Virus record (IMG/VR): IMGVR_UViG_3300012209_000019
Span: 1 to 30,790 of that record
Source: a virus
DNA: 30,790 nt
Reading direction: 5' to 3' (one strand)
The notes beneath the pieces are model-generated. The model saw only the letters and a list, made by a program, of their open reading frames with translations, ran no database searches and had not been told where the DNA came from. Position numbers and translations under genes: made by a program. Shown here piece after piece: positions 1 through 30,790 of this stretch (the stretch's first letter is position 1; every line of letters starts with the position of its first letter).

Positions 1-123
1 CTCGTGGGGGTGAGGGGGCTTGGGCGCGAGACCGGGGCGCTCGGTGCTCGGGATGGGGCGAATAGAAAAAGCCCCCCGGCCGGTGAGGGCGCGAGGGGCT
101 GGGCTAGGCGAATTGGGAGGGGG
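1..123. repeat. Left inverted terminal repeat (123 bp)
   Basis: Read base by base, positions 1-123 are identical to the reverse complement of 30668-30790; identity stops at 124 (g against t). The outer part is G-rich, with G tracts at 6-10, 14-18, 22-24 and 34-37. The inner part carries the terminator of the leftward operon, whose last stop codon lies at 127-129, just inside the repeat. Whether the repeat is a physical genome end, half of a larger palindrome or a contig break point cannot be told from sequence alone. Confidence 0.97.
66..100 (-). terminator. Rho-independent terminator of the leftward operon
   Basis: Read on the minus strand, AGCCCC (plus 95-100) pairs with GGGGCT (plus 70-75), and a run of five T (plus 66-70) follows. 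The loop is GC-rich and contains CCGGCC. The site lies 27 bp beyond the last leftward stop codon. It is the exact mirror copy of the terminator at the right end. Confidence 0.8.
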
Positions 124-126
124 GAG

Positions 127-318
127 CTACGGCAATAGGTCCATGAGGAACAGGCAACGCTTGCACGTCACCGTTTCAAAGTCGGTTGCGAGCGTCGGTA
201 TGGTGACCAGCGCTCGGCGGTAGTCCGTTCGGCACAATGGCCGATTGCCATCGTTGTAGTGAACGGCATACGCGCGCGATCGGGTCGAGGCCGGCCGCTC
301 GAAGATGCGATCCGTCAT
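127..318 (-). CDS. Small putative zinc-ribbon protein, last gene of leftward operon
   Basis: This 63-aa protein has a His/Cys pattern: H20, C29, then VTCKRC (C52, C55) near the end. It resembles many tiny phage proteins with an H...C...CxxC arrangement that probably bind one zinc ion; their role is unknown. The ATG overlaps the upstream stop as ATGA, so translation is likely coupled. The stop falls 4 bp inside the terminal repeat boundary. A protein with similar Cys/His spacing is encoded at 3768-4040 on the other arm. The fold is inferred from the motif alone. Confidence 0.7.
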   Translation of the reverse strand: MTDRIFERPASTRSRAYAVHYNDGNRPLCRTDYRRALVTIPTLATDFETVTCKRCLFLMDLLP

Positions 319-707
319 CGCGGCCTCGCTCGCACGTCGTCATCTTCGATCGCACGCTGAGCCATGCGTGCGAGCTCGCCGCTTCCGAACGCCGCGACGT
401 GAGCGAGCGCCTCTCGAAGGTAGGCGATGCGAACGCCGGGCAAGCTCCCACGCACGGGAGCATGAAGAGAGCTCGAGTTCCCGAGCTCGGGGCGAAACGA
501 GTCGACGATGAAACGCTCGATCGACCGCATCGCCACGCTCTTTCCGAGCAAGCGATGCGGCCACCGGTGAACGTTCCCGCCACCGGGTTGCCCCGGCGCA
601 CGCAAGGCGATCAGGCAATCGCCGGGGTGTTCGACGTCGAGGTGGCATCGCCAAGCCTGCTCGAGAGGGTGGCGGCTCGTGCACCGCATCCACGCGAAGA
701 GGCTCAC
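315..707 (-). CDS. Hypothetical protein with C-x-L-x3-H-x-G-D-C motif
   Basis: This 130-aa protein is not assigned to a family. Near the N-terminus it carries C21, L23, H27 and GDC ending at C31, in the same spacing as the protein at 2664-2885. Similar short Cys/His motifs are common in tiny phage proteins and may bind metal. The C-terminal half is Arg- and Ala-rich, helical in character, and ends in a basic stretch. The start is a GTG at 707 that overlaps the upstream TGA (GTGA), matching the coupling pattern of the operon. The two copies of the motif in one operon suggest an ancient duplication. Confidence 0.68.
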   Translation of the reverse strand: MSLFAWMRCTSRHPLEQAWRCHLDVEHPGDCLIALRAPGQPGGGNVHRWPHRLLGKSVAMRSIERFIVDSFRPELGNSSSLHAPVRGSLPGVRIAYLREALAHVAAFGSGELARMAQRAIEDDDVRARPR

Positions 708-1003
708 GGGAGCACCCTTGATTCGTAAGTGTTGGCGAGGCCGCGATCGTTGGGGCGATCACGCTTTCGAAGCAACATCACGAGCCACGCGCGGCAACGC
801 TCCGCACGTCTCACGAGTAGAAAGAACCGATCACCGAAAGCGCACGACGCGCAGCAATCGCCATTGTCGAAAGCGGATTGATTCATCGCGTCGATCTCGG
901 CGCAGTATCGCGCGAGAGCGTGAACGTTGAACCGGATCGCATCGTCGCCCTTGGTCGAGCGGGAGCGATACCGATGGGCGAAGATGCTCGACGTGGTCTT
1001 CAC
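704..1003 (-). CDS. Hypothetical small Cys-containing protein
   Basis: This 99-aa protein is of unknown function. The frame is open further upstream, but the GTG at 1003 is preferred because it overlaps the stop of the preceding gene (GTGA) and is preceded on the minus strand by a GAAGGA Shine-Dalgarno-like stretch. A central CCASC cluster and a later single Cys could bind metal. The C-terminal part is Arg-rich. No membrane segment or signal peptide is seen. It lies inside the overlap-linked leftward chain, so it is probably co-expressed with its neighbours. Confidence 0.66.
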   Translation of the reverse strand: MKTTSSIFAHRYRSRSTKGDDAIRFNVHALARYCAEIDAMNQSAFDNGDCCASCAFGDRFFLLVRRAERCRAWLVMLLRKRDRPNDRGLANTYESRVLP

Positions 1004-1335
1004 GGCTCGGCATCCTTCGCCGCGCGTGCAGCGGCCCGGCGTTGCGAGCGGAGATCGTTCGCGCGCTTGGACCGCGCACGAGACGCGGCCATGTGAGCCT
1101 CGCATTCCTTGAACCCGGGAGCGGCCGGCTCATCGCATTGACCGCAAAGGCCGATCTTGGTGTGCTCGCGTCGTCGCTTCTTGATCGGTGACGACGCGAA
1201 CGGCACGCGGCCACCGACGATGATCGCCGCGTCGCGCGGCCGGTAGTTCGCATCGGTGGGGAGCGATGGGATCTTGGGCCACGACGGGTGGACACCCCAG
1301 ATGGCGAGCGGGAGCGGGGGATCGAGCGTGCTCAT
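1000..1335 (-). CDS. Putative zinc-finger protein with basic C-terminus
   Basis: In this 111-aa protein the centre holds a compact CGQC...CEAH arrangement (C64, C67, C78, H81), followed by an Arg/Lys/Ala-rich tail from about residue 85. This combination resembles the small zinc fingers seen in some phage nucleic-acid-binding and HNH-associated proteins, but no HNH catalytic motif is present. DNA or RNA binding is inferred from the zinc-type motif plus the basic tail. ATG at 1335 overlaps the upstream TGA as ATGA. The Pro-rich first 30 residues look unstructured. Confidence 0.7.
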   Translation of the reverse strand: MSTLDPPLPLAIWGVHPSWPKIPSLPTDANYRPRDAAIIVGGRVPFASSPIKKRRREHTKIGLCGQCDEPAAPGFKECEAHMAASRARSKRANDLRSQRRAAARAAKDAEP

Positions 1336-1562
1336 TCAACGCCTCCAGGCTTGTCAGTGTCCCCATGTCGTTCGGCGCGAATCATGTAGCGGATGACCGA
1401 AGAGACTTGATCCGTGTACGCCGTGTGAATGACGCGAAGTTGCTCCGCTTCGGTGAGCTGATGTTTGACGCTCAGCGCGGCGAGAGCGTTCACCAACTCA
1501 TGCACCGCCTTGCGCACGATGAGCTCGCGTGGGTGCATACGCGGCAACGGCCCGTCACTCAT
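1332..1562 (-). CDS. Hypothetical helical protein
   Basis: This 76-aa protein is of unknown function. The frame is open upstream to a TTG at 1670, but that extension is Arg/Ser-rich shadow sequence that overlaps the 53-aa gene at 1555-1716. The ATG at 1562 gives a product starting MSDGPLPR and an 8-nt overlap with that gene's stop. The product is mostly amphipathic helix (residues about 12-60) with no Cys cluster, signal or membrane segment. A small helical oligomer or inhibitor would fit but is not supported by any motif. Confidence 0.65.
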   Translation of the reverse strand: MSDGPLPRMHPRELIVRKAVHELVNALAALSVKHQLTEAEQLRVIHTAYTDQVSSVIRYMIRAERHGDTDKPGGVE

Positions 1563-1716
1563 CGGGCCACCGAGCCACGATCGCGTCGAGCATCGTTTTC
1601 GCATCGGCCGCCAATCGGCGCGCCTCGGTGGGGCTCGGCTCATCGACCGCGAATTGGACGATCTCTGCAACGTGCGAGAGATGGCGATTAGCGGACTCGC
1701 GTTGTTCCTTCGTCAT
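1555..1716 (-). CDS. Very small helical protein (53 aa)
   Basis: Manual translation of the minus strand from the ATG at 1716 gives a 53-residue protein starting MTKEQRESANRH and ending ARWPDE. Its balanced charged composition differs from the Arg/Ser/Pro-rich shadows around it. The ATG overlaps the upstream stop (ATGA, 1713-1716), and its own TGA at 1555-1557 overlaps the next start by 8 nt. It therefore fills an otherwise unexplained gap in the overlap chain. It is predicted all-helical, and its function is unknown. Confidence 0.68.
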   Translation of the reverse strand: MTKEQRESANRHLSHVAEIVQFAVDEPSPTEARRLAADAKTMLDAIVARWPDE

Positions 1717-1934
1717 GATTCACCGTTCACGTGAGGGCAAAGGGTTGCATCTTGGGCCGTCATAACGGCCGACTTGCACGAGTGAGTAAGCGCCTCGCGC
1801 GGCGACGAAGCGGGCACCGAAAACGCGATGCACCACGCCGCCGCGTGCGTCTTGCACGAGAGGCACATGAGGGTGAACGCCGGCCGGCCCATGCGCTTGG
1901 GATCGAATCGCACCCAAAGGCCCGAGGCGCTCAT
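1713..1934 (-). CDS. Hypothetical small Cys-rich protein
   Basis: This 73-aa protein starts at the ATG at 1934, which overlaps the preceding stop as ATGA. Longer versions reaching 2033 add Gly/Arg-rich residues that overlap the upstream gene and are rejected. The centre has CLSCKTH followed by another Cys a few residues later, then a further Cys and a late CPH, enough ligands for a zinc site. The spacing does not match a family I can name. Its neighbour upstream carries the W/F-rich domain shared with the first rightward gene. Confidence 0.65.
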   Translation of the reverse strand: MSASGLWVRFDPKRMGRPAFTLMCLSCKTHAAAWCIAFSVPASSPREALTHSCKSAVMTAQDATLCPHVNGES

Positions 1935-2239
1935 GGCCGGAAAGGGCGCTCCACCCAAGCCGCGAAGGCGCGCCGGTTCCCTTCGTCCCACACCGCCATT
2001 GCTTCGAGCAGATCGAAGCGTCCCACTTCCCACTCGCGATTATGCCAAACGGCAAGAATGAACGCGGCGGCCGACTTGCCACCCTTGCCGGCGAAGCGTG
2101 CGCCCCACTTGTCGAGCGTGGCGAGGTGCTCGATCGCGGGTGACAAGTGTTGCCCGGCCTGCTCGCCGTCGATGTGCATCGCGTGCTCAAGGCACGGGAA
2201 CGAAGCCCAGAGTGCGAGGAACGCCGCGCGGCCACTCAT
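1931..2239 (-). CDS. Hypothetical protein with C-terminal domain shared with the first rightward gene
   Basis: This 102-aa protein starts at the ATG at 2239 (ATGA overlap). Its last 50 residues align by eye with the C-terminus of the protein at 3260-3787. Both have an Ala-rich helix, an N before a W, then E-x-G-[RK]-F, a six-residue gap, Ala, W-x-EG-[ND]-R, AF-x-AW and a final P-x-x-P pattern. Roughly 18 of 50 positions are identical. No characterised family with this pattern is known to me. Presence of the domain on both arms suggests a duplicated phage module, perhaps one that acts on the same host target. The function is unknown. Confidence 0.72.
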   Translation of the reverse strand: MSGRAAFLALWASFPCLEHAMHIDGEQAGQHLSPAIEHLATLDKWGARFAGKGGKSAAAFILAVWHNREWEVGRFDLLEAMAVWDEGNRRAFAAWVERPFRP

Positions 2240-2667
2240 CGACAACTCGCTTCGTTGGTGAAGCCGGCCACGAGCCCGGGATAGGGCTGCACAACATCGG
2301 CGCGTTTGCGATCGGCCGAGAGCGTGACGGGGTAAACGTTGGGGTCACCGGGGATCTGAACGCTCACGGTGCAGGGGCGAAGCGCGAGGCACGTGGTGTG
2401 CGCCTTGCCGATCGCCACGACGTTGCCCGGGGTGCGTTCGTCCACGTTGTCGAGCGTGCGAATCTCGGCGGTGAGCGTGTCGGCCGTGTCGAGCGTGGTC
2501 TCCCATTGCGCCCACGCGTGCGACGACTCCACGAAGAACGTGGTCGAGCACGTGGCCACGGCGAGCGCTTGCGCGCCGGTGGACTCCGTCTCGGTGATTG
2601 CGCTCGGGGGAGCCGAGCACGCGAAGAGTGAGAGAGCGGCGAACGTCGTAGCAAAAAAGAGTTTCAT
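2236..2667 (-). CDS. Predicted secreted lipoprotein
   Basis: This 143-aa protein opens with a short basic n-region (MK), a hydrophobic stretch (LFFATTFAALSLF) and a lipobox ending at C17 (L-F-A-C), followed by Ser. It should be lipidated by the host Lgt/LspA pathway. After a Thr/Ser-rich linker, the mature part holds five further Cys, consistent with disulfides in an oxidising compartment. Serine at +2 favours the outer membrane under the usual Lol rule. The start at 2667 overlaps the upstream stop (ATGA). Phage lipoproteins expressed outside the lysis cassette often alter the host surface, for example in superinfection exclusion (T5 Llp type). That role is inference. Confidence 0.75.
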   Translation of the reverse strand: MKLFFATTFAALSLFACSAPPSAITETESTGAQALAVATCSTTFFVESSHAWAQWETTLDTADTLTAEIRTLDNVDERTPGNVVAIGKAHTTCLALRPCTVSVQIPGDPNVYPVTLSADRKRADVVQPYPGLVAGFTNEASCR

Positions 2668-2885
2668 AGCGGCCACCATCCGTCGATTGAGAGGTTGCGA
2701 AACACGTAGCGGGGAGTCGAGGGGCGAGAGAGGATGCAGTCGCCACCGTGGGAGGGATGCAGGGTGCACCCGTAATGATGCGGGGCGCTCGCCGTGGCGG
2801 ATTGCTCGGCGATGATGTCGCGCCTTACGCGAGCGATGATCGCGTCCATCTTGGCGATCGCGGCTTCGAGCGTTGCGCGGCTCAC
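2664..2885 (-). CDS. Small protein with helical N-terminus and C-x-L-x3-H-x-G-D-C motif
   Basis: This 73-aa protein starts at the GTG at 2885, which overlaps the preceding TGA (GTGA) and has an AGGTGGAG Shine-Dalgarno upstream. Residues 3-30 form an amphipathic helix. C40, L42, H46 and GDC ending at C50 match the motif of the protein at 315-707 with identical spacing. The aromatic C-terminus (DGWWPL) is unusual. It probably coordinates a metal through the Cys/His cluster. No function can be assigned. Confidence 0.68.
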   Translation of the reverse strand: MSRATLEAAIAKMDAIIARVRRDIIAEQSATASAPHHYGCTLHPSHGGDCILSRPSTPRYVFRNLSIDGWWPL

Positions 2886-3112
2886 CACTCCACCTGCTCG
2901 GCGATCTCGCCCCAGCATTCGCCGATGGTGTACGCGTCCTCGTGGCCCTCGGGGAGATACTCACCGTTCGGATCGTTCCAACGAAGCCACGCGATAAGCT
3001 GCGCGTGCGGGGCGTACGGGGTGAGCCTCGGCGCGCCGTGGGCCATGCACTCTTCGTTCGCGTGTACCGCGATATCCGTTCGAGCCACCACCGATTCGAT
3101 CGCCTTCAACAT
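2882..3112 (-). CDS. First gene of leftward operon, hypothetical
   Basis: This 76-aa acidic protein has several Trp and an internal His-rich half. The ATG at 3112 is preferred over a TTG at 3133 because a GAGAGA purine stretch sits just upstream on the minus strand. The frame is open at least to 3133. No domain is recognised. Being closest to the divergent control region, it should be the first protein made from the leftward promoter, a position often taken by anti-host or regulatory proteins. That is inference from position only. Confidence 0.68.
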   Translation of the reverse strand: MLKAIESVVARTDIAVHANEECMAHGAPRLTPYAPHAQLIAWLRWNDPNGEYLPEGHEDAYTIGECWGEIAEQVEW

Positions 3113-3135
3113 CGTCTCTCTCGCCTCCCACAATC

Positions 3136-3163: not shown

Positions 3164-3250
3164 TAGCCTCAAACGGGTGACACCTTGCTTTTTCTTTGAC
3201 CCGCACCGCGCGTTCAGGTACGCAAGGTGTCAGGCAACGGTGACACCTTG
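3150..3250. promoter_or_regulatory. Four-copy TGACACCTTG array in the divergent control region
   Basis: Exact copies of the 10-mer TGACACCTTG lie at 3150-3159, 3178-3187 and 3241-3250 on the plus strand, and an exact inverted copy lies at 3223-3232. The last two form an inverted pair with an 8-bp spacer. All four sit between the two divergent operons, so they are likely operators for a regulator of both arms or, less likely, replication iterons. A candidate binding protein is the small HTH protein at 5722-5961. The repeats are seen directly; the role is inferred. Confidence 0.85.
3196..3224 (+). promoter_or_regulatory. Weak candidate rightward promoter
   Basis: TTGACC (3196-3201) is a good -35 match, preceded by a T-rich stretch, but at 17-bp spacing the -10 position reads TACGCA (3219-3224), which matches poorly. 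The inverted TGACACCTTG copy begins at 3223, overlapping the putative -10. A promoter for the whole rightward operon must lie between 3113 and about 3260, and this is the best sigma70-like candidate. A phage activator or a different sigma factor may be used. Confidence 0.25.
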
Positions 3251-3259
3251 CCGGAAAGA

Positions 3260-3787
3260 ATGGTTGACAGGATGGGAATCGAGGAAAGGGCGCGCCTTTT
3301 GGTGGCCGCTCTCGACTTGCCGGTGGATGCGCCGGTGTCTGCTTCGGCGCGTCTCAAAACGATTGCTAAGGACGAAAGGGAGTTGACGAACGTTCTCGAT
3401 CACACTCGGGCGCTGTTTGACTTACTCACGGCCGGTCCCCCGAGTGCGCCGAGCACGCCGCTCTTGCCGGTGTCGCCTTGGCGCAATCCCGCGCTGAAGA
3501 CGATGGCCGATCAGTGGGCGGCGATCTGCCAAACGTTGCCGGCGTTGCAGCACGAGCTCGTGGTGCCGCTCATCACGAAGGCGAAGCTTCGCGACCTTGA
3601 GCAGCTCGCCCGCACGGAAGCCGTTCCCCTTGCGACGAAGCACGCGATCCGCTTCGCGCTCTCTCTCTTCAATCCCGGCTTTCTTTGGGAGTGCGGGAAG
3701 TTCGAGATCGTGCCCGCGCTTCGCTCGTGGAGTGAGGGCGATCGCGTGGCGTTCCGTGCGTGGATCGATGACCCTTGGGCGCCATAA
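3260..3787 (+). CDS. First rightward gene; hypothetical with duplicated C-terminal W/F domain
   Basis: This 175-aa protein has a charged helical N-terminal half with a Pro/Ser linker near residues 50-65. Its C-terminal half ends in the domain shared with the leftward protein at 1931-2239 (W-E-C-G-K-F, W-S-EG-D-R, AF-R-AW, then P-W-A-P). The start is uncertain: ATG 3260, ATG 3272 and GTG 3227 are in frame, and none has a well-spaced Shine-Dalgarno. GTG 3227 lies inside an operator copy and is the least likely. The function is unknown. Confidence 0.75.
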   Translation: MVDRMGIEERARLLVAALDLPVDAPVSASARLKTIAKDERELTNVLDHTRALFDLLTAGPPSAPSTPLLPVSPWRNPALKTMADQWAAICQTLPALQHELVVPLITKAKLRDLEQLARTEAVPLATKHAIRFALSLFNPGFLWECGKFEIVPALRSWSEGDRVAFRAWIDDPWAP

Positions 3788-4040
3788 ACACGCGCTCTCG
3801 CCGGTGGTGGTGGCGATCCCTTGGGAGCGCTGCGTCCAGCGGAATAACGATGGGTGCGTGCACGCGCAAGACAACGGGGGGCACACGGCGTGCGGGCTTC
3901 GAACGCGCGGGGTGATGGGGTGGCAACGATCGGCCGCGGGAGTTTTTTGCGGCCGGTGTCACCTCGCTTTGGACGCTCGGGAACGGTTGAAACGCCAGGT
4001 GGACGAAAGGGAGCGGCGATGGGCAGGAAAAACACGCTAA
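3768..4040 (+). CDS. Putative zinc-ribbon protein
   Basis: In this 90-aa protein a VH pair (H32), ACG (C42) and FCGRCH (C61, C64) form an H...C...CxxC pattern like that of the protein at 127-318. A basic, probably helical tail follows (residues 68-90, rich in Arg, Glu and Lys). The ATG at 3768 lies 20 nt inside the preceding gene. The frame is open further upstream to 3597 but gives only Arg/Ser-rich shadow sequence. Zinc binding is inferred, and the biological role is unknown. Confidence 0.7.
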   Translation: MTLGRHKHALSPVVVAIPWERCVQRNNDGCVHAQDNGGHTACGLRTRGVMGWQRSAAGVFCGRCHLALDARERLKRQVDERERRWAGKTR

Positions 4041-4384
4041 CGGTCTTGGAGCGATTGGAGCTCGGGGCGCTCATGCGGGCGCATTGCGAGCTTCAAGCGA
4101 TGCTCGGCAACTTCCCGCATGAACGAATGCTCTACCTCGCGGAACGCGCCGTGTCGGCCGAGAGCGAGGAAGAGATGCGGGAGTCACTCACCGATCTAGA
4201 GACTGACAACGCGATGCGCGACGGTCACCGGCTCGTGGCCGATATCAAGACGCTTCAAGAGGCCACCGAGGCGCTCTCGGTGGGCGCGCGGGGATGCGAA
4301 TGCGCCCGATGCCGTGAGCGACGGTTGCAGGTGGAACGACGACGACAGGAAGACATCGCAAGCCAGAAAGGGAGTGTCCATTGA
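4019..4384 (+). CDS. Hypothetical helical protein with C-terminal Cys cluster
   Basis: This 121-aa protein starts at the ATG at 4019 behind an AAAGGGAG Shine-Dalgarno and overlaps the upstream gene by 22 nt. Most of the chain is predicted helix rich in Glu, Leu and Arg. Near residue 93 there is a CECARC cluster followed by a very basic segment (ERRLQVERRRQ), which could bind nucleic acid through a metal-bound knuckle. No named family is recognised. It is coupled to the next gene by a TTGA overlap. Confidence 0.72.
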   Translation: MGRKNTLTVLERLELGALMRAHCELQAMLGNFPHERMLYLAERAVSAESEEEMRESLTDLETDNAMRDGHRLVADIKTLQEATEALSVGARGCECARCRERRLQVERRRQEDIASQKGSVH

Positions 4385-5016
4385 ACGCGCCGAATGAAGT
4401 GATGAAGGACTCGAAGGTCACCATGGCCGAGATCGCGGCCGTCGAGGCGATCAGCAACGCGTGGGATGAAGTGACGCGGTGGCTCGCCACCGTCGACTTT
4501 GCCAAGACGCGAGACATCATCTCGCGCATCGTGGCCGAGGGTACGGGCACGAGTGCATCGCTCGGGCCGCTCGGCGTGGCCTCGGGGCAACGCAAGATCC
4601 TGGAGACGTACGAGCTCGAACGCGTGGGGAAGGTGCTCCAAGCGCTCGGGTGCCCTTGCGTGAATTGCATGGGCAAGGCGCCAAAAGAAGACCCGAGCTC
4701 GGTTACGTTCAAGGGCGAGGCGGGGGGCTTGGTCTCCTCGGTGCGCGTCACCGAGGGGCCGGGGCACGACGTGCTCACGGTTTGGAATCGTGGCGCGAAC
4801 GCGGGAACGCTCACGGTGACCAAGGGCGAGGGCTTCGAGATCGGCCATCGCCTCGTAACCACCACGCTCGACTCCGCACTCGAGCAGCACGAGCCGCTCG
4901 CACAAATGCGCGATCTGATCGTGATGCTCGCGACGCAATCGATCGACTCCGAAAAGCTCGTGGCGATCGAGGCCGACGCGGCCAAGCTCGCGCACGATGC
5001 GGGGTGGATTCGATGA
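4381..5016 (+). CDS. Hypothetical protein, 211 aa
   Basis: A TTG start at 4381 is favoured over the ATG at 4402 because AAAGGGAG at 4368-4374 is spaced correctly for it and the TTG overlaps the upstream stop (TTGA). The N-terminal third is helical (residues 15-85). A CPCVNC motif lies near residue 92, followed by a beta-rich stretch (about 105-160) and a C-terminal helical region. No catalytic motif is identified. It sits in the early accessory cluster, so a role in host takeover or DNA metabolism is possible but not shown. Confidence 0.75.
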   Translation: MNAPNEVMKDSKVTMAEIAAVEAISNAWDEVTRWLATVDFAKTRDIISRIVAEGTGTSASLGPLGVASGQRKILETYELERVGKVLQALGCPCVNCMGKAPKEDPSSVTFKGEAGGLVSSVRVTEGPGHDVLTVWNRGANAGTLTVTKGEGFEIGHRLVTTTLDSALEQHEPLAQMRDLIVMLATQSIDSEKLVAIEADAAKLAHDAGWIR

Positions 5017-5276
5017 GCCCGGGGCGCTCGCCGAACGGCCCGCAATTCTCAAGGCGCCAGATCCGCGCGCCGCACTTCGATCTCGCCACGCTCGCCGCGC
5101 TCGGGGTTTATCGCGAGGCGGTGCGGAAACAGGCCGAGGCGGATCGCGCGTTCCGTCTCGCGCAAGCCTCGATCGACCACGTGAAAGCTGAGCGCGCCGG
5201 CATCACGGCGCGTGCAGCGATGGCCGAAACGCTCGCCGCTCGTGCAGCCCTCGACGCATGCCTGCTCGACGCGTAA
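5013..5276 (+). CDS. Small Ala/Arg-rich helical protein
   Basis: This 87-aa protein starts at the ATG at 5013, overlapping the previous stop (ATGA). After a 20-residue Arg/Pro-rich leader, the rest is a long Ala-rich heptad-like helix (residues 24-87), probably a coiled coil. There are no conserved catalytic residues. Its stop (TAA) is shared with the next start (TAATG). The function is unknown. Confidence 0.68.
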   Translation: MSPGRSPNGPQFSRRQIRAPHFDLATLAALGVYREAVRKQAEADRAFRLAQASIDHVKAERAGITARAAMAETLAARAALDACLLDA

Positions 5277-5719
5277 TGGGCACGCCGTACTACTTCGAGA
5301 CGCTCAACGAGGTGATGCGCGATCACCTCGGTTTCCAATGGCGGTTTTTCTTCAACCCGAGTCACCCGATAGGACGATCAATGCATCACGCTTGCCCCCC
5401 TGACACCCAAGCTTGCCCGGCGTGCGGGCACTTTTTCTCACCTCGAATTGAGGTGAGGTGCGTCGTCTGCCAAGAGCGGGAGAAGAGCCGGCTCGCCGAG
5501 GAAGCGAGCAAGGTGCACGTCGAACGCGCCAGCGTGTTGGCTCGCGAGGTGGACAACCTTCGTGATCGCGTGCGCAACATCGAAGGGATCAATGTGGATC
5601 TCGGCGAGCGGCTCAACATGAAGGGGGCCGAGGCGAACGCGCTTCGTGAATCGAACGAGGTGCTCGCGATGGCGATCCGCACGATCAACTCGATCAATCT
5701 TCAGCGCGCACGGCAATAG
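5276..5719 (+). CDS. Zinc-ribbon plus coiled-coil protein
   Basis: This 147-aa protein starts at the ATG at 5276 (TAATG overlap with the upstream stop); an in-frame ATG at 5258 is possible. Residues 1-40 are aromatic-rich. A zinc-ribbon pair, CPACG and CVVC about 15 residues later, spans roughly residues 47-67. The rest (about 70-147) is a continuous Glu/Arg/Leu coiled coil. The layout suggests an oligomeric adaptor with a metal-stabilised head. The function is unknown. Confidence 0.75.
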   Translation: MGTPYYFETLNEVMRDHLGFQWRFFFNPSHPIGRSMHHACPPDTQACPACGHFFSPRIEVRCVVCQEREKSRLAEEASKVHVERASVLAREVDNLRDRVRNIEGINVDLGERLNMKGAEANALRESNEVLAMAIRTINSINLQRARQ

Positions 5720-5721
5720 CC

Positions 5722-5961
5722 ATGGCAATGCCGTCCGTCATCCGCGGCCGTCTCGGCGCCTTGATCAAGGCGTACGCGGGGGTCGATGCGTTCGCCGCGC
5801 TCGTGGGAGTGTGGCCACACACGGTGTGGCGCTGGGGCACCGGCCGCACTTCCCCCGAGCAGGCGAAACGCGAACTAATGAACGAGCTCGCGAGGGATAA
5901 GCACCTCGCGTTGCCGTTTCCTGATGCCGCCAAAACGAAACGACGTGGTTTGAAAGGGTGA
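5722..5961 (+). CDS. Small helix-turn-helix regulator (Cro/XRE-like)
   Basis: Residues 20-45 of this 79-aa protein read as a helix-turn-helix: a VDAFAALVGV first helix and turn, then WPHTVWRWGTGRTSP as recognition helix and following loop. This is close to the usual A-x-x-[LI]-G-[VI]-x-x-x-T-[VI]-x-R-W-x-x-G pattern of XRE proteins. Helices follow (PEQAKRELMNEL) and the tail is basic. It is the only clear DNA-binding regulator seen in the window and is the prime candidate to bind the TGACACCTTG array at 3150-3250. That link is inference; the HTH call rests on the motif. Confidence 0.78.
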   Translation: MAMPSVIRGRLGALIKAYAGVDAFAALVGVWPHTVWRWGTGRTSPEQAKRELMNELARDKHLALPFPDAAKTKRRGLKG

Positions 5962-5967
5962 ATCGCA

Positions 5968-6261
5968 ATGACCGATGAAGAATTGAAAGCACGCACCGAC
6001 GATGCGCGCACGGCGTTGGCTCGTACGCTCGTGGGACACATTCGGCGATTGGATGACAATGCGTCGATCACGATCCTTGCGCGCGCGTTCGGAGCAATCG
6101 CCGATGCGTCATCGAACGCCTCCACTGAATTGGCGAAAGGCCCTCGTGGAGATCGAGAAAGTCGTGCGCGATTGGCAAGGCATGCCCACAATCGCCCAAG
6201 TGCAAACGATCTATCAGTGCCTTGCGCGCTTGGACGCGATCCGTGGCCGAGCGCTCTCTAA
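5968..6261 (+). CDS. Hypothetical protein, possibly frameshifted or overlapping
   Basis: The frame gives 97 aa. An AAAGGG Shine-Dalgarno precedes the ATG. Residues 1-52 look like a genuine acidic helical protein, but the following 45 residues are Arg/His/Pro-rich like a shadow frame. Meanwhile another frame from 6104 to 6271 reads as good protein. Either two genes overlap by about 158 nt, or one gene of about 100 aa is split by a +1 shift near 6110-6130, whether natural, a mutation or a sequencing error. The function is unknown. Confidence 0.5.
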   Translation: MTDEELKARTDDARTALARTLVGHIRRLDDNASITILARAFGAIADASSNASTELAKGPRGDRESRARLARHAHNRPSANDLSVPCALGRDPWPSAL

Positions 6262-6271
6262 AGCCGGGTGA
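6104..6271 (+). CDS. Small hypothetical protein in the alternative frame
   Basis: This is a 55-residue product starting MRHRTPPLNWRK and ending RALSKAG, with a regular helical pattern (ALVEIEKVVRDW, then TIAQVQTIYQCLARL). GGAG at 6091-6094 is well spaced from the ATG at 6104, so it may be translated on its own. Alternatively it is the C-terminal half of the gene starting at 5968, reached by a +1 frameshift. Composition favours this frame as the real coding frame between about 6115 and 6260. The function is unknown. Confidence 0.55.
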   Translation: MRHRTPPLNWRKALVEIEKVVRDWQGMPTIAQVQTIYQCLARLDAIRGRALSKAG

Positions 6272-6506
6272 CGTTGGCTTCGTGCCACGCTATCCGCCCC
6301 TCGACCTCTCGCCGTTCGAAGCACGCCTAAAGGAACGGCGAGAGGCCGCCACGGGGATCATGAATCCCGCCACGCGCGAAGTGGTGGAATCAGACACCGA
6401 GATGATGCGGCGCCTTTTGTTGGAGGTGAAAAACCTCCGCTTGGGAAACGCCGCGCTCAAGACCGTGATCGATTCGATGCAGCTCTATAGGAGGCCGCCA
6501 ACGTGA
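6243..6506 (+). CDS. Hypothetical coiled-coil protein
   Basis: This protein has 87 aa from a GTG at 6243; GTG 6282 is an alternative start that would remove the overlap with the preceding gene. The N-terminus is Pro-rich (RYPPLDLSPF), and the remainder is helical with Leu-rich heptads (MMRRLLLEVKNLRLGNAALK). It ends with a GTGA overlap into the next gene. No domain is recognised. The start is the weakest part of the call, as neither GTG has a strong Shine-Dalgarno. Confidence 0.6.
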   Translation: MAERSLKPGDVGFVPRYPPLDLSPFEARLKERREAATGIMNPATREVVESDTEMMRRLLLEVKNLRLGNAALKTVIDSMQLYRRPPT

Positions 6507-8578: not shown

Positions 8579-8593
8579 TGTAACCTGCACGCG

Positions 8594-10099: not shown

Positions 10100-10157
10100 G
10101 TGCACGCCTGTACACTGCACGCTTGCGCACTGAGCGGCTTGCGGGTAGCTGTTCAGT

Positions 10158-20852: not shown

Positions 20853-20862
20853 GAGGCCGAGC

Positions 20863-23075: not shown

Positions 23076-23088
23076 AGAAGAGGCACCG

Positions 23089-23361: not shown

Positions 23362-23362
23362 A

Positions 23363-24028: not shown

Positions 24029-24474
24029 AGCTCGACGCCATCAAACGATCACTCATCGCACTGATCGAGGAAGCGTTTCCAAACGACAAGTTTGGAGCCT
24101 TTTACGAATTCATCGTGACGGCGCAAGACGGCTCGAGCATGGACGCCGAGCCCGCGCCGAGCGCGCTCAGTATCGAGCCCGGACTAAAGCCGGTCTTTGG
24201 CGTACGCATGCGCCCCTCGATCTTGGGCGAGGTGGCCACGTACCCCTCGGGCGCAAGTGTGGTGATCGCGTTCCTCAATCGCGATCCCGCTCGCCCCTTC
24301 GTGGCCTTTGGCGATCCCGACTCGATCCCGACCACGAGCACGATCGACGCCACGGCCGGCGTGACGATCGGGCACGGGATCGCGCTCCCCATCGCGCGAC
24401 AGACCGATCCCGTGCAGGCCGGCCCCTTTGCCGGCGTGATCGTTCAAGGCTCGCCACTGAATACGAGCGGGTGA
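24025..24474 (+). CDS. Baseplate spike protein (Mu gp45 / gpV-like)
   Basis: This 149-aa protein starts at the GTG at 24025, which overlaps the previous stop (GTGA) and has a purine-rich GGAGCGAGG upstream; an ATG at 23974 is in frame but adds Arg-rich shadow sequence. An OB-fold-like domain (GVRMRPSILGEV, then SVVIAFLNRDPARPFVAFGDPDS, about 58-103) is followed by a short beta stretch and ARQTDPVQAGPFAGVIVQG, usual in membrane-puncturing spike proteins. It probably trimerises at the tail tip. Confidence 0.78.
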   Translation: MKLDAIKRSLIALIEEAFPNDKFGAFYEFIVTAQDGSSMDAEPAPSALSIEPGLKPVFGVRMRPSILGEVATYPSGASVVIAFLNRDPARPFVAFGDPDSIPTTSTIDATAGVTIGHGIALPIARQTDPVQAGPFAGVIVQGSPLNTSG

Positions 24475-24478
24475 AACC

Positions 24479-24694
24479 ATGGCCCTCGATCCCACCCGTC
24501 TCGCCACCACGATGCGCACCGCGATCCTTTCCGCGGATTGCGGCGCGGTCGATGGACCGGCGCTCACCGGCCTTTGCAACGCGCTCGCGACGTCGATCGT
24601 CACCGAGATCCTTACCCACGCGGTGGTGCCCGCGGGATTGCTAGCAGCTCCCCCAAGCGGTGGCCCGGTCACCGGATCGACTACGGTGACGTAA
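24479..24694 (+). CDS. Small protein of the baseplate cluster
   Basis: This 71-aa protein has an amphipathic N-terminal helix with a central hydrophobic part (LCNALATSIVTEILTHAVV) and ends in a Pro/Gly/Thr-rich tail. Similar small proteins occur between spike and gp25-like genes in Mu-like phages, but their function is not known to me. The stop shares bases with the next start (TAATG). Confidence 0.65.
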   Translation: MALDPTRLATTMRTAILSADCGAVDGPALTGLCNALATSIVTEILTHAVVPAGLLAAPPSGGPVTGSTTVT

Positions 24695-25086
24695 TGGCGA
24701 CAGACTACGGCCGCGATCTATCGTGCATCACCGATCTGTCGCCCCTCATGACGGAAGCGACCGGCCGCGACGTGGTGATCGAGGCCGCTTTGCGTCGCAT
24801 CACCACCGCGCGCGGGATGGCCATCGATTGCCCCAACGATGGCACCGACGTGGGAAGCCTCTTGAGCCACGAGGTGGGGGCGGGCGACGTCGCACGCATT
24901 CGCGCCAACGTGGAGGGCGAGCTCGTGAAAGACGATCGCATCTTTTCCGCGTCTGTCGTTCGCCTGGCATTCGTCGCGGCCACCGGCGTGCTCACGATGG
25001 CGATCCGTCTCGAAGATGCGGACGGCCCATTCATCCTCACCGTCGATGTGAGCTCGCTCACCGTTCAATTGCTAGAGGTGTCGTAA
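24694..25086 (+). CDS. Baseplate wedge protein (gp25/GPW-like, Mu gp46 position)
   Basis: This 130-aa protein starts at the ATG at 24694 (TAATG). The sequence MATDYGRDLSCITDLSPLMTE, a conserved-looking GRDVVIEAALRRITTARG and a C-terminal strand region (TVDVSSLTVQLLEV) are typical of the gp25-like lysozyme-fold wedge proteins that start sheath assembly on the baseplate. The stop overlaps the next ATG. The frame is open back to 24538, but there it is shadow of the neighbour. Confidence 0.78.
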   Translation: MATDYGRDLSCITDLSPLMTEATGRDVVIEAALRRITTARGMAIDCPNDGTDVGSLLSHEVGAGDVARIRANVEGELVKDDRIFSASVVRLAFVAATGVLTMAIRLEDADGPFILTVDVSSLTVQLLEVS

Positions 25087-26246
25087 TGCTCACGCTCGCC
25101 GATCTGCTCACCCCCGAAACGCGCGATGAGGTGCTCCAAGACTTCTTGGATATCGGTACGGCCGTGGGGCTCCCGGTGACCGCGTGGCAAAAGCTCGGCG
25201 TGGCGCGAACCATCCTCGCCACCGTCGCGCAAAAGGTATCCGACGTCATCCGCATGGTCACAACGGCCACCGCGGGCGGCCTGCTCGACTACGCCGCGGC
25301 GGTCACTCCCGAGGGTGGGCCGGGGTGGCTCGACATCCTCGGGCACAATATGTACGGGACGGACCGAATCCCGGGCACGTTCGCCGGTGGCGCCGAGACT
25401 CTCACCAACACGAGTGGCGTCACATACACGATCAACCCCGGCGATCTGACGTTTTCCAACACGCTCAGCGGCAAGACCTATACGAATCTCACCGGCGGAT
25501 CGCTCAACGCGCACGGCTCGCTCACGGTCGACATCATCGCGAGCGAGATCGGCTCGGCGAGCTCGTCAATCGCGGGAGCGATCGACAACCTAGTAACGCC
25601 GCTCAACGGCGTGACGTGCGCCAATACGCTTCCCGTGCTTGGCACCGACGTTCAAAAGAACGCCGATTACGTCCAATCGTGCCGCGCCTCGCTCGCCGCG
25701 ACGTCACCTAACGGGGCGCACGACGCTTACAACTATTTCGCCAAGCGCACGCTTAGGCCGGACGGCTCGAGCGTCGGTGTCACCCGCACGCGCACCACGA
25801 TCGACCCCACGACGGGCCGGATCTCTCTCTACGTCGCCTCGGCGAACGGGCCGATCGATCCGAGCGATCAGAATTACGTGGTCGATCAGATCCAAAACAC
25901 GTGCGTGCCGTTCGGCGATGCCGTGGACGTGATCAACGCCACCGCTCACTCGATCACGGTGACCGGCGTAATCACCGTGCTCGGAACGTCGGTGGTGGGA
26001 GTGACGGACGCGCAGCTCGCCGCGAAGGCGCTCACGCAGATCGCTGCATACTTTTCGGTCGTTCCGATCGGGGGCTACCTCGGGACGATTTACGCTGAGG
26101 GGATTCGTGGGCAGATCTCGCAATCGATCGGCTCGCCCGCGTTCGTCACCTGCTCGATCTCTTCCCCGGCCGGCGACACCGCGCTCACGAGCTCCGACGT
26201 TCCCACGTTGAACGTGGCGAGCGCCTTTACCATCGTGAGGATCTGA
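25086..26246 (+). CDS. Baseplate J-like protein (Mu gp47)
   Basis: The beginning of this 386-aa protein is helical (LLTPETRDEVLQDFLDIG), followed by a beta-rich domain with GTFAGGAETLTNTSGVTY and GSASSSIAGAIDNLVTPLNGV (the classical J-family G-x-x-x-N-V-x-x-G-x-I region, about 155-180). The C-terminal half has RISLYVASANGPIDPSDQNYVVDQI and ends in a beta strand. J proteins form the wedge ring of contractile-tail baseplates. The ATG at 25086 overlaps the previous stop (TAATG). Confidence 0.88.
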   Translation: MLTLADLLTPETRDEVLQDFLDIGTAVGLPVTAWQKLGVARTILATVAQKVSDVIRMVTTATAGGLLDYAAAVTPEGGPGWLDILGHNMYGTDRIPGTFAGGAETLTNTSGVTYTINPGDLTFSNTLSGKTYTNLTGGSLNAHGSLTVDIIASEIGSASSSIAGAIDNLVTPLNGVTCANTLPVLGTDVQKNADYVQSCRASLAATSPNGAHDAYNYFAKRTLRPDGSSVGVTRTRTTIDPTTGRISLYVASANGPIDPSDQNYVVDQIQNTCVPFGDAVDVINATAHSITVTGVITVLGTSVVGVTDAQLAAKALTQIAAYFSVVPIGGYLGTIYAEGIRGQISQSIGSPAFVTCSISSPAGDTALTSSDVPTLNVASAFTIVRI

Positions 26247-26249
26247 GCG

Positions 26250-27113
26250 ATGGGCATTCGCGACACCATCCCCAAGATCACTCCCGCATGGCTCAACGGC
26301 TTCGTGGGGACGCGCTTCCTATACTCCATGGGGCTCGTGCTCGACGCGGTCTATGAAAAGGCTCACCAAGGCGTGCTCGCACGCTTCCCTGGCCTTGGCA
26401 CCCCCACCGCGCTCCCCGCCATCGGCGCCGATCGTCAGATCGATCGCGGCTTCGCCGAGACGGACGATTCGTATATCGCGCGGCTGATCGGGTTTCGCAA
26501 AACGTGGGCATTCGCCGGGAACGCGCTCACGTTGATCAAGCAATTCATCGGTTACACGTCCCCCTTCGCCGTACCGATCAAGACGGTAAACATCGGCGGC
26601 AATTGGTGGACGTACGACGGGGCCGGCAACTATCTCCACCACAATCAAGTGCCGCCCAATTGGAATTGGGACGGTCACCCGGAAGTCTATTGGCGCGGGT
26701 GGATTATCCTCTATCCGCCTCCCACGCTTTGGAAGAGGCCGCCCGTCTTGGGCACCGGTGGCGTTGCGAAGCTCGGGCAAGGTGGCCCCACCGGTTTCAC
26801 GCTCGGAAGCACCGCCACGAGCTCGCAAGTGGCCGGGCTCCGTCAATTGGCCAACAAGTGGAAAGACCAAGGCTCGATCGTTCCAAACATCATCCTCGCT
26901 TTCGACGCTGCGTTCGCCCCCGAATTCTTGCCACCGGCTTCGAGCGGTCTCCCCGATGGTTCGTGGGGTGCGCAATCGAAGCTCGTGGCCGGAGTGCAGG
27001 TGCGATCGCGCGACCCGCGCGCCGTCTACCTAAGCGGCTCCGTCCAATTCGCGTATACAACGTTTGCGGGGCCGCCCGCTTATCCCGGGGCCGGCGTCCC
27101 CGTTCCCTCGTGA
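26250..27113 (+). CDS. Tail protein I-like / baseplate protein (Mu gp48 position)
   Basis: This 287-aa protein has an N-terminal helical part with DSYIARLIGFRKTWAFAGNA and LIKQFIG, then a Trp-rich middle (GGNWWTYDGAGNY, NWNWDGHPE, YWRGWIILYPPP, about 110-165). A C-terminal domain follows with Gly/Ser-rich loops. In other phages this protein connects baseplate wedges to fibres. The Trp-dense segment is a hallmark of this family. The ATG at 26250 lies 3 bp after the J stop. Confidence 0.8.
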   Translation: MGIRDTIPKITPAWLNGFVGTRFLYSMGLVLDAVYEKAHQGVLARFPGLGTPTALPAIGADRQIDRGFAETDDSYIARLIGFRKTWAFAGNALTLIKQFIGYTSPFAVPIKTVNIGGNWWTYDGAGNYLHHNQVPPNWNWDGHPEVYWRGWIILYPPPTLWKRPPVLGTGGVAKLGQGGPTGFTLGSTATSSQVAGLRQLANKWKDQGSIVPNIILAFDAAFAPEFLPPASSGLPDGSWGAQSKLVAGVQVRSRDPRAVYLSGSVQFAYTTFAGPPAYPGAGVPVPS

Positions 27114-27122
27114 GGTGATCGC

Positions 27123-27734
27123 ATGCCTGGTACCCCGTACGCTGGTAACGACGTTTTCCCCGCATCGATCACCATCCCCACCGATGGCGACGATTACGTA
27201 GCGGCCACCTATGCGCCGGCCGACGAAGGGAACGCCGATCGCTCACGGTGGCTAAAAAACCGCACGGGTGACTATCGCGTCGTGGGTGTCCCCAACGTCT
27301 ATGACGTCGTTTACGACGACGTTTTAGGCTTCACCAACACCTCGTGGACTGACACCGTCCTCACCCCCGCGCATGCGACCACGTTGACCACGGTGCCCGC
27401 GGCGGCCCTGCTCGTGGACGATTGGCTGGACGTCATCTTCGCCGGCACGGGCTCTTTCACCCCCGGCGCGGCCTCGGCCCTCAATCAAGGGTGGCTCGCG
27501 CTCGTTCGAAACGGCGCACTCATTTCGGGTGCGAACGCGCTTTATGCGCCGGGTGCCATCAATTCAAACATCATCATCTTTACCGCGCCGATCGTGCTCA
27601 AGGCGAAGATCCACGTAACGGCCGCCGTCGATCAGGTGTTCGGCATCACCGGGAAGATCGACCACTCGGCCACGCAAGTGGAATTCCGCGGCTCGTGGTC
27701 GATCTCAATCACGCACTATCGGAGCAACGCCTAA
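27123..27734 (+). CDS. Tail fibre or fibre-adaptor protein
   Basis: This 203-aa protein lies directly after the I-like gene, where fibres are usual. The N-terminus has a short conserved-looking region (PTDGDDYVAATYAPADEGNADRSRW broken by Asp), followed by beta-rich sequence with a C-terminal globular domain. It is much shorter than usual fibres, so it may be an adaptor or a short tip. Its stop overlaps the next start (TAATG). Confidence 0.6.
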   Translation: MPGTPYAGNDVFPASITIPTDGDDYVAATYAPADEGNADRSRWLKNRTGDYRVVGVPNVYDVVYDDVLGFTNTSWTDTVLTPAHATTLTTVPAAALLVDDWLDVIFAGTGSFTPGAASALNQGWLALVRNGALISGANALYAPGAINSNIIIFTAPIVLKAKIHVTAAVDQVFGITGKIDHSATQVEFRGSWSISITHYRSNA

Positions 27735-28561
27735 TGAGCACCCTCGACGGCCTGATCTTTGGGATCAAAGACATCATCAATAAGCTCGGGGTGACGCAAC
27801 CCACGAGCACGAAGCTCCGTTTTATGGACGGTGCCGTCGTTTATAACGAGGGCACCAAGGCGCTGGAGTACACGCCGCCGAGCGCCCCACCCGTCAATTA
27901 CCCATTCGGCCCCGCGGCAAAGCTCACCACGCCGCCCGATATCGCGTCCTTCACGCTTCGCAATCCGGTGGGTGGTGGCGTTGGCACTGCGTCGCTTGCG
28001 ACGATTCAAAACCACCCGAGTGGCTACGGCTTCGCCATCTACGGGACGCAGAACAGTCAACACGAGTGCTTTTGCGGCGCGATGAAAACGCGTGGGGCCA
28101 ACACCACGCTCATCGCTCAGATCGACGCGCCGTATTGGGATGCGTCGCCCGATGGCGTGATCAACGCGCCCCCGTTCGGCGGGATCTTCATCTACTCGCC
28201 GGCCACCGGTAGGGCGATCATCTTTGGCCCATACTCGGGCACGATCGTGGGCTCGAGTGCGATCTATGTCTTTCACCAAGACATCGCGGGGGCGGGCACA
28301 ACGGCCGCGTGCAGCTTCGTCCCCGGCCGATCGCCGTTTCCGCTTTGGCTCAAGTGGCACGATGACGGAGCGAACTACAATTATTCGTATTCGTTCGACG
28401 GCGAATTCACGCACGCGCCCACCTTCGTGGAGTCGCGCACCGCGTGGCTATCCGACGCGGGCACCGAGGTGGGGATCGGCGCCAACGCGAATCAGGCTTC
28501 AGGCACGCGCACCAACAAGACGTCTTTCTCGCTATGGTGTGGAAGCTTTTCTCTCACCTGA
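27734..28561 (+). CDS. Putative receptor-binding / tail appendage protein
   Basis: This 275-aa protein starts at the ATG at 27734 (TAATG). After a helical start (LDGLIFGIKDIINKLGV) the chain is beta-rich with many aromatic residues (YWDASPDGV, WLKWHDDGANYNYSYSFDG, FSLWCGSFSL), like jelly-roll or lectin-type domains. That fits a receptor-binding tip, possibly carbohydrate-binding. Only composition and location support this. The upstream frame is open to 27422 but is shadow of the previous gene. Confidence 0.6.
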   Translation: MSTLDGLIFGIKDIINKLGVTQPTSTKLRFMDGAVVYNEGTKALEYTPPSAPPVNYPFGPAAKLTTPPDIASFTLRNPVGGGVGTASLATIQNHPSGYGFAIYGTQNSQHECFCGAMKTRGANTTLIAQIDAPYWDASPDGVINAPPFGGIFIYSPATGRAIIFGPYSGTIVGSSAIYVFHQDIAGAGTTAACSFVPGRSPFPLWLKWHDDGANYNYSYSFDGEFTHAPTFVESRTAWLSDAGTEVGIGANANQASGTRTNKTSFSLWCGSFSLT

Positions 28562-28578
28562 ACGAAGGGGATCAATCG

Positions 28579-28872
28579 ATGAAACTATGGCTCAAAACAT
28601 TCGCGGCTTCGATCGTGGTCTTTGCTGCATTCTCGATCGCCCTCGGCAGCCCGGGGTGCACGAAAGAGCAGGGGGCTAAGGTCGAATCGGTGGCCTCGAA
28701 AGAGGCGATCAACGCAACCCTTTGCGTCCTTCAAAACATCACGCTCCCACCCGACCAGATCGCCGTGCGATGCGTGGGGATGACGGTGGGTGACGTTCTG
28801 AACGTGCTCGAGCAAACGCCGCCCGCGATGAAAGCGCGCCTCGGCGCCAAGTCGGACGCCGGCTCCCCGTGA
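28579..28872 (+). CDS. Small lipoprotein, o-spanin candidate
   Basis: This 97-aa protein starts at the ATG at 28579 after GAAGGGG. The signal segment LKTFAASIVVFAAFSIALG is followed by SPGC (C27), a loosely fitting lipobox. The mature part has Lys and Glu early and a helical centre. Position before a single-pass coiled-coil protein and the lytic enzyme suggests an outer-membrane spanin subunit. The gene order (o-spanin first) is inverted against lambda, so this is inference. Confidence 0.65.
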   Translation: MKLWLKTFAASIVVFAAFSIALGSPGCTKEQGAKVESVASKEAINATLCVLQNITLPPDQIAVRCVGMTVGDVLNVLEQTPPAMKARLGAKSDAGSP

Positions 28873-29255
28873 GCAGTGACCCGATCTGGATCGGCGTGGG
28901 AGGGCTCGCGATCGCGATCGCCACCTCCTACGCAACTTCACTGATTCAATCGGTCAAGGCGGGGCGTTTGATCGAGAGGCTCGAGAGGGCCGTAAAGGAC
29001 ATTGAAGATATGCGCGATGACGTGGGAAGAATCCCCGTAATCGAGGAACGACAGAAGCACGGCGATAGCCGGCTAGAGGGCTTCCAACACGCCGTGAGCT
29101 CGGTGACCAGCAAGGTCGAAACGATATGGCTCAAGGTGTTTAGCCACGATAAGCACATCGCTGTAACGCAAGAGCAGGTGCGCCAGCAATCTCACCACTC
29201 GTTCGACGACATCGTGAGTGACACGATCCCCGCTCCCCCCAAACGACGAAGGTAG
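28869..29255 (+). CDS. Single-pass coiled-coil protein, i-spanin or holin candidate
   Basis: This 128-aa protein starts at the GTG at 28869, overlapping the lipoprotein stop. One transmembrane helix (residues about 6-29, PIWIGVGGLAIAIATSYATS) is followed by a long coiled coil (30-115) and a basic end (PPKRRR). That topology is typical of i-spanins such as Rz. It could also be an accessory holin; no multi-span holin is recognisable in the window. Confidence 0.68.
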   Translation: MSSDPIWIGVGGLAIAIATSYATSLIQSVKAGRLIERLERAVKDIEDMRDDVGRIPVIEERQKHGDSRLEGFQHAVSSVTSKVETIWLKVFSHDKHIAVTQEQVRQQSHHSFDDIVSDTIPAPPKRRR

Positions 29256-29262
29256 GTGCAAC

Positions 29263-30033
29263 GTGAATTGGATCAAGTCGCCCGAGCACATCTATGCGTT
29301 GCTGCTCTTAGCCGGGCTCATCGCTAGCGCGTTTCCCAATTCTGCGATTGCCGGCGCTCACAATCCGAACGGTGATGCGGCCGGCCTTTGTCAGATGATG
29401 CCGGGCACGTTGAAAGCGGTGGGCTTCGTCGAAGGGTGGCAACGCTTCATCGCGCTTACCGCTGGCGATCAGCTCCCTTGGATGAATCGTTATTACCGCG
29501 CGTACACCGGCCGCATGGCATCACCGGCGCTCGCGTACCTCGCCACGTTTTTGCCCGCGTACCTCACGCCGGGCTATCTCCCCAAGGGTGAAGAGCTCGG
29601 CCCCGAGACGGTGATCGCTGCACGCGGCGGCCGGCTCGGGTGGGCCTATTCGGCGAATGCGGTCTTTGATGAAAACGGCGATGGCCGAATTCAGCTTTAC
29701 GAGCTCGGGGACGCGATCGCGCGCAACACCGTGGGCGATCGATGGGATGAGATCGCGGCCAAGCTCGCCACGATCGCGAGCTTGCCGATCCCGTCTCCCA
29801 CGCAACGGCCGCCCACGATCGACCTTGGCACCGTATGGGGAGCGCAACGCGCGCTCACCGTGCTCACGAGGCCGAACGGTGCACCGTGGTACGCCGGGCC
29901 GATCGACGGCATCGTCGGCCCCATCACGCGCGGCGCAATCCGCGATTACCAGGCCGCTCACTCACTCGAGCAAGTCGGATACGTTGGCCCACTCACCAAA
30001 CGCGCGTTAGAGGCGGATCTCGAAAGCGCATAG
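29263..30033 (+). CDS. Endolysin-like protein with EF-hand and peptidoglycan-binding domain
   Basis: This 256-aa protein starts at the GTG at 29263, the start nearest a Shine-Dalgarno-like AGG. Residues 10-50 recall a lysozyme-like transglycosylase core (NPNGDAAGLCQMMPGT), but the expected Glu-Ser pair appears as A21-S22. Residues 136-147 (DENGDGRIQLYE) form a perfect EF-hand calcium loop, as known in MltB/Slt35. Residues about 183-255 are a peptidoglycan-binding domain (WGAQRALTVL, GPIDGIVGPITRGAIRDYQ, GPLTKRAL). The N-terminal hydrophobic stretch may be a signal or SAR segment. It should cut the host wall at lysis. Confidence 0.75.
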   Translation: MNWIKSPEHIYALLLLAGLIASAFPNSAIAGAHNPNGDAAGLCQMMPGTLKAVGFVEGWQRFIALTAGDQLPWMNRYYRAYTGRMASPALAYLATFLPAYLTPGYLPKGEELGPETVIAARGGRLGWAYSANAVFDENGDGRIQLYELGDAIARNTVGDRWDEIAAKLATIASLPIPSPTQRPPTIDLGTVWGAQRALTVLTRPNGAPWYAGPIDGIVGPITRGAIRDYQAAHSLEQVGYVGPLTKRALEADLESA

Positions 30034-30043
30034 AAAGATCATC

Positions 30044-30451
30044 ATGAAAAACTTTTCCTCTACCGTTTTCGAGATGGCGTGCGTGAGCATCGCCGCATCT
30101 CTCTCTGGCCTCTTGCACCCGCACCAAGCCGGGCCGCTGTACACGGAAGACCAGATCATCGACATCTCCACGGCACGAGCGCTGAAGCTCGCCAAGGCTT
30201 CGGCATTGGTGCTCGACGCCGAGGCGTTGGCGCAAGCCACTCCCGCGCCGGTCACCACGCCGGCAACGGGGCCGAGCGATAGCGAGCTCGCCGCGGCGGC
30301 CGACAAGGCCGCTCAGGAAACGATCGCTTCCGAGATCGCATCGCTCAACAAGCCCCCCACGTCACCCGATCCGATCCCGAGCTCCGAACCCATCGCGCCG
30401 AGCGCCGAGCCCACGAGCGCTCAGACGCCAACGGCCAAGCGGGGGAAGTGA
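30044..30451 (+). CDS. Hypothetical protein with disordered Pro/Ser/Ala tail
   Basis: This 135-aa protein starts MKNFSSTVFEMACVSIAAS with a short mildly hydrophobic stretch, then an Ala-rich helix (about 38-65), and a tail rich in Thr, Pro, Ser and Ala with a basic end (TAKRGK). It is of unknown function, and the tail suggests disorder. The GTGA overlap to the next gene indicates coupled translation. It could be a lysis accessory or virion protein. Confidence 0.6.
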   Translation: MKNFSSTVFEMACVSIAASLSGLLHPHQAGPLYTEDQIIDISTARALKLAKASALVLDAEALAQATPAPVTTPATGPSDSELAAAADKAAQETIASEIASLNKPPTSPDPIPSSEPIAPSAEPTSAQTPTAKRGK

Positions 30452-30687
30452 TCCGGCTCGCCGTCTTCGCCGATCAAGACGATCTCGACATGGTGATGCC
30501 CACGATGGGCGAAGAGTGGATCGGGATCGTTGTCGGTGCGGAGGTGAATGGGCAAGCGTTCGATGAAGCCCTGTTCTTCGATCCGTTCTCGCGCAAGAGC
30601 GTGGCCGAAGCCAAGGGGGTGTTCGACTGGATCTGCAACGTGGTGCTAACTCGCTTGAAGCCTGGTACCCCCTCCCAATTCGCCTAG
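30448..30687 (+). CDS. Hypothetical protein ending inside the terminal repeat
   Basis: This 79-aa protein starts at the GTG at 30448 (GTGA). It is acidic and globular, with MGEEWIGIVVGAEVNGQAFD and a C-terminal helix with W and C (VFDWICNVVLTRL). The last codons and the TAG (30685-30687) lie within the right terminal repeat, so the gene's C-terminus depends on the repeat sequence. The function is unknown. Confidence 0.65.
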   Translation: MIRLAVFADQDDLDMVMPTMGEEWIGIVVGAEVNGQAFDEALFFDPFSRKSVAEAKGVFDWICNVVLTRLKPGTPSQFA

Positions 30688-30790
30688 CCCAGCCCCTCGC
30701 GCCCTCACCGGCCGGGGGGCTTTTTCTATTCGCCCCATCCCGAGCACCGAGCGCCCCGGTCTCGCGCCCAAGCCCCCTCACCCCCACGAG
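30668..30790. repeat. Right inverted terminal repeat (123 bp)
   Basis: Reverse complement of positions 1-123 with no mismatch seen. It contains the end of the last gene, the shared terminator and a C-rich outer part (the complement of the G tracts at the left end). Joining the two window ends would create one 246-bp perfect palindrome with CACGAGCTCGTG at its centre. Confidence 0.97.
30691..30725 (+). terminator. Rho-independent terminator of the rightward operon
   Basis: AGCCCC at 30691-30696 pairs with GGGGCT ending at 30721, followed by TTTTT (30721-30725). It lies 4 bp after the last stop codon. It is the mirror copy of the left terminator, so both operons are closed by the same element facing outward. 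Confidence 0.82.

Follow-up and report, generated by a model that had tools for sequence, protein, structure and literature searches.

In metagenomic contigs, the lengths of terminal repeats tend to coincide with the k-mer lengths used by the assembler, an assembly break leaving a repeat whose length equals k, and the CheckV authors, who described this behavior, reported a near-complete share of 33% for contigs with inverted terminal repeats (ITRs) and of 90% for those with direct terminal repeats (PMC8116208). Tailed-phage contigs from metagenomes show an excess of inverted ends, and some species clusters hold both direct- and inverted-end versions (PMC9610469). The k-list reported for MEGAHIT assembly of JGI metagenomes comprises 23, 43, 63, 83, 103, and 123 (PMC6646334 and PMC6478937), and SPAdes with k of up to 127 has also been used on JGI metagenomes. 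A described phage relevant to the present case is Mx4 of Myxococcus, a Mu-like myovirus with a circular genome of 57.0 kb (PMC8530038).

The window analyzed here, a complete IMG/VR record of 30,790 bases, starts and finishes in a repeat whose two copies (Table 1) are 100% complementary. An earlier note on this DNA had claimed perfect inverted copies of 123 bp at both ends, and this was borne out: the match extends over exactly 123 bases by direct count, after which similarity is lost abruptly, the next 200 bases inward being 22.5% identical, as in random sequence. Chance cannot account for a perfect match of this length at the two extremities; the repeat has a real inner boundary, and its true length would be at least 123 bases. 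Its outer sequence is CTCGTGGGGGTGAGGGGGCTTGG, and its G+C content is 73%, compared with 63% for the window. Repeat pieces of 15 bases or more do not recur inside the window, no direct terminal repeat was found at the window ends, and a search of IMG/VR with the repeat as an exact 50-mer returned no match. Because the window is the whole record, the repeats sit at contig ends rather than at demonstrated ends of a molecule.

Table 1. Coordinates of the terminal repeat, its predicted terminators, and the principal gene modules
Feature	Position	Strand	Content or prediction	Basis
Left repeat copy	1..123	-	Predicted outward-facing intrinsic terminator, after the left operon	
Right repeat copy	30668..30790	+	Same predicted outward-facing terminator, after the late operon	
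Terminator core, left copy	71..90	-	GCCCTCACCGGCCGGGGGGC-TTTTTCTATT	Terminator scan, fold
Terminator core, right copy	30701..30720	+	GCCCTCACCGGCCGGGGGGC-TTTTTCTATT	Terminator scan, fold
Leftward module	127..3133	-	Small genes of unknown function	ORFs, codon-position G+C
Rightward module	3227..30687	+	Early genes, exonuclease, terminase, Mu-type head, contractile tail, lysis genes	ORFs, profile matches
Large terminase	8594..10099	+		Conserved ATPase and nuclease residues

Repeat length and assembler k-mer length

The repeat length of 123 coincides with the final k of the MEGAHIT list reported for JGI metagenomes. Among 79 control IMG/VR microvirus contigs (gokushovirus relatives), 28 carried a direct end repeat, most commonly of 123 bases (5 of 28), followed by 99 and 121 (3 each), and none had inverted ends; 123, as the commonest length, is thus a software length within the IMG/VR collection. 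The behavior of inverted repeats was modeled with an idealized, error-free toy de Bruijn graph (k=123) built from random synthetic genomes, in which any repeat arm of 123 bases or more left the main contig with inverted ends of exactly 123 bases, so that both the outer ends and the length are fixed by software. This output did not depend on whether the genome was linear and ended in ITRs or was circular, with either a palindrome or two inverted copies lying apart from each other; the three arrangements, therefore, cannot be distinguished from the contig alone. A palindrome that is perfect but has arms of less than 123 bases was rejected as a candidate: the outer ends would then share a short direct repeat, and none is present here.

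Operon layout and gene content

From a divergence point at approximately 3.2 kb, the two gene modules run outward, and it is at the contig ends that they converge. The leftward module yielded neither a Pfam match above the cut-off nor a PHROG match. Its last stop codon is 4 bases away from the inner edge of the repeat, and that of the rightward module lies 20 bases within the repeat. Each copy carries an outward-facing terminator-like hairpin, GCCCTCACCGGCCGGGGGGC, followed by TTTTTCTATT, which folds at approximately -25 kcal/mol (z of approximately -1.9). The count of terminator-like sites in both end regions was not clearly above shuffled expectation, and the argument for terminators consequently rests on their position and orientation directly after the last genes, on which grounds we infer that the repeat represents an intrinsic-terminator region.

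Two further observations concern genes of these opposing operons. The proteins encoded at 1931-2245 (-) and 3227-3787 (+) have in common a C-terminal stretch of 33 residues (45% identity, E 8e-10) and are probably paralogues. The last gene, 30448-30687 (+), encodes 79 amino acids that resemble related large terminases at the Walker-B stretch (38% over 48 residues, E 5e-6, in L120); it lacks four residues and the double aspartate, has no profile match, and may be a terminase-derived remnant or a chance likeness.

The window holds a full head, tail, and lysis gene set, with matches to Portal_Mu (9e-54), Mu-like_Pro (2e-10), the phrog_371 major head protein (3e-71), and a tail sheath (1e-36); the capsid protein is gpT-like and the sheath belongs to DUF2586. 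The label of Mu-type myovirus in the earlier note is, on this evidence, upheld for the head and tail; Pfam and PHROG scans of the ORFs gave no match to the Mu-type DDE transposase A or target protein B. The same scans recognized no family-B polymerase, terminal protein, or protelomerase, in agreement with what had been remarked earlier, nor a transposase, integrase, replication initiator, or repressor. The left 8 kb, which consists almost wholly of genes of unknown function, could hide divergent replication or end-forming components, such as a terminal protein; an exonuclease VIII-like gene is located at 6982-7740. Scans of the window for tRNA and Rfam families returned nothing.

The aligned relatives share with the large terminase its Walker A and Walker B motifs and its nuclease residues D282, E403, and D469/D470/D473, the nuclease residues having been judged from this alignment since PDB gave no sequence match to the terminase. 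By this conservation, it is an intact two-domain enzyme, which we take to be of the concatemer-cutting and not the phi29 kind. Unit-length packaging by means of a terminase without a nuclease, a trait of protein-primed phages, is not indicated, as the nuclease residues are retained. The nuclease domain also bears an insertion of approximately 55 residues after approximately residue 300, which is absent from the aligned relatives shown.

Elsewhere in the head region, a fused S49 protease and Mu-like scaffold protein contains a long, repetitive stretch rich in Asp, Glu, and Ala (12590-12805, +). Between the protease and capsid genes, 13352-14104 and approximately 14135-15914 (+) both match one gene of a relative (G018 16528-16962). 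This suggests that a head-decoration protein has been duplicated, the second protein carrying a long extension at its C-terminus.

Origin of the inverted ends

A comparison of the first 25 kb with 50,697 phage records detected no DNA similarity, and patterns drawn from the terminase, portal, last gene, and first gene retrieved no close IMG/VR relative, so the contig ends could not be compared with those of a near relative. An alignment-based search returned 80 IMG/VR relatives, with a best capsid identity of 46%, none of which is near enough for the junction itself to be seen. Both ends were read in 26 related contigs; inverted ends occurred in none of them, and two, of 43,719 and 65,278 bases, had direct end repeats of exactly 127, a length by which they are recognized as circles that an assembler with k=127 had closed. 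The check for the same ends in related genomes, raised in the earlier note, was thus negative among these 26 contigs, none of them close. The closed relatives measure 43.7, 57.0, and 65.3 kb, versus 30.8 kb here.

It is considered likely that assembly was broken off at the contig ends by an inverted repeat bearing a terminator, in a genome with a circular map, perhaps with DNA missing. A sequence of 123 bases or more would be present in the genome twice, in inverted orientation, and would force an assembler based on de Bruijn graphs, most likely MEGAHIT with a final k of 123, to stop; the branching k-mer would be kept on both contig ends, producing exactly 123 inverted bases whatever the true length of the repeat. 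The repeat would constitute the intrinsic-terminator region in which the late operon, running rightward, and the small-gene operon, running leftward, face each other, the phage being a circularly mapping, concatemer-packaging, Mu-headed myovirus, and the DNA between the two copies could amount to a few bases or to several kilobases of genome left unassembled. Both MEGAHIT as the assembler of the source record and the circular map are presumed from the evidence above.

An assembly break is favored by the identity of the repeat length and the assembler k, the circularity of the closed relatives, the concatemer-cutting terminase, and the lack of a recognized family-B polymerase, terminal protein, or protelomerase, to which may be added the outward terminator in each copy and the placement of the operon stop codons at the repeat edges. 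Weighing against it are the 44- to 65-kb sizes of the closed relatives, compared with 30.8 kb here, the want of a close relative in which the junction can be seen, and the idealized nature of the graph test. Of the readings put forward in the earlier note, the one supported, given the length of k and the circular closed relatives, is that an inverted repeat broke the contig. A circle with a palindrome, which had been listed separately, becomes a special case of such a break, and both are favored over protein-primed or telomere-resolved ends.

Two versions of the assembly break are given equal weight, each tentatively. The first is a circle of approximately 31 kb with little missing, in which the inverted repeat, as a palindrome or as arms with a short spacer, lies at the point of operon convergence. 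That both contig ends are operon ends with terminators, as around the convergence point of Mx4, argues for little missing DNA, and the head, tail, and lysis gene set is complete; however, all three closed relatives are larger, a replication initiator, transposase, integrase, and repressor are not recognized, and a perfect palindrome would need arms of at least 123 bases given the outer ends. In the second version, the remainder of the genome falls between the two repeat copies and is carried by a different contig. The larger sizes of every closed relative and the near-absence of recognizable replication genes, together with that of lysogeny genes, indicate that part of the genome may lie there, and IMG/VR contigs with ITRs are mostly incomplete by CheckV, although both ends fall neatly at operon ends, and small phages with the same head type exist near 36 to 38 kb.

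It is improbable that the genome is truly linear, bears inverted terminal repeats of 123 bases or more, and is replicated by protein priming or another scheme. The toy graph indicates that such a genome would look the same, but neither a family-B polymerase nor a terminal protein was found among the scanned proteins, the terminase is of the intact, two-domain, concatemer-cutting type, and the relatives are circular, with no inverted ends in the related contigs that were read. Protein-primed ends, as envisaged in the earlier note, are disfavored on the same grounds, and a Mu-headed myovirus with linear virion DNA, ending in inverted repeats of 123 bases or more and maintained with no recognizable family-B polymerase, terminal protein, or protelomerase, would be a slightly more doubtful proposition still. 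It is similarly improbable that a fold-back chimera formed during library preparation or amplification created the inverted link in a genome with no true repeat: inverted chimeras are common after multiple-displacement amplification, but a random chimera would not place its inner edges at operon ends with a correctly oriented terminator in each copy. The halves of a telomere-resolution site of a hairpin-ended linear prophage, also suggested earlier, would place inverted copies at both ends but are very improbable, since no protelomerase (an N15-type trait) was recognized in the scanned ORFs, the length equals the assembler k, and known telomere-resolution palindromes, at tens of bases, are far shorter than the repeat.

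A new genome-end strategy for this type of phage, which the earlier note had made conditional on linear or telomere-resolved ends, is not supported and is improbable, an ordinary cause being available in a terminator-bearing inverted repeat that is likely to have broken the assembly; were the ends real, they would amount to such a strategy for contractile-tailed phages. In catalogues, inverted ends on a contig are taken to indicate a complete linear genome, and inverted ends of length k can stem from an inverted terminator repeat in a phage with circular relatives. Comparing repeat length with k before new genome ends are claimed would weed out many false claims.

Comparison with known systems

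The protein-primed phages phi29, PRD1, and Cp-1 resemble the window in the inverted repeats at the ends of their sequence records. They differ in possessing their own polymerase B and terminal protein, and the phi29 group also in a special packaging ATPase; in the window, polymerase B, a terminal protein, and a phi29-type ATPase were not found, and an ordinary large terminase is present.

Mx4 is colinear with the window from the portal to the baseplate genes (capsid, sheath, and portal identities of 39%, 36%, and 37%, respectively) and has the same layout of two divergent and convergent modules, its convergence point lying at 42.9 kb on a closed circle. In contrast to the window, it is closed without inverted ends, has a far larger leftward module, and carries early genes unrelated to those seen here.

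The k-length terminal repeats of short-read metagenome contigs (PMC8116208) share with the window an exact repeat at both ends and a length equal to the assembler k. Those repeats are direct, whereas the present ones are inverted, an orientation which requires an inverted repeat in the genome rather than a plain circle.
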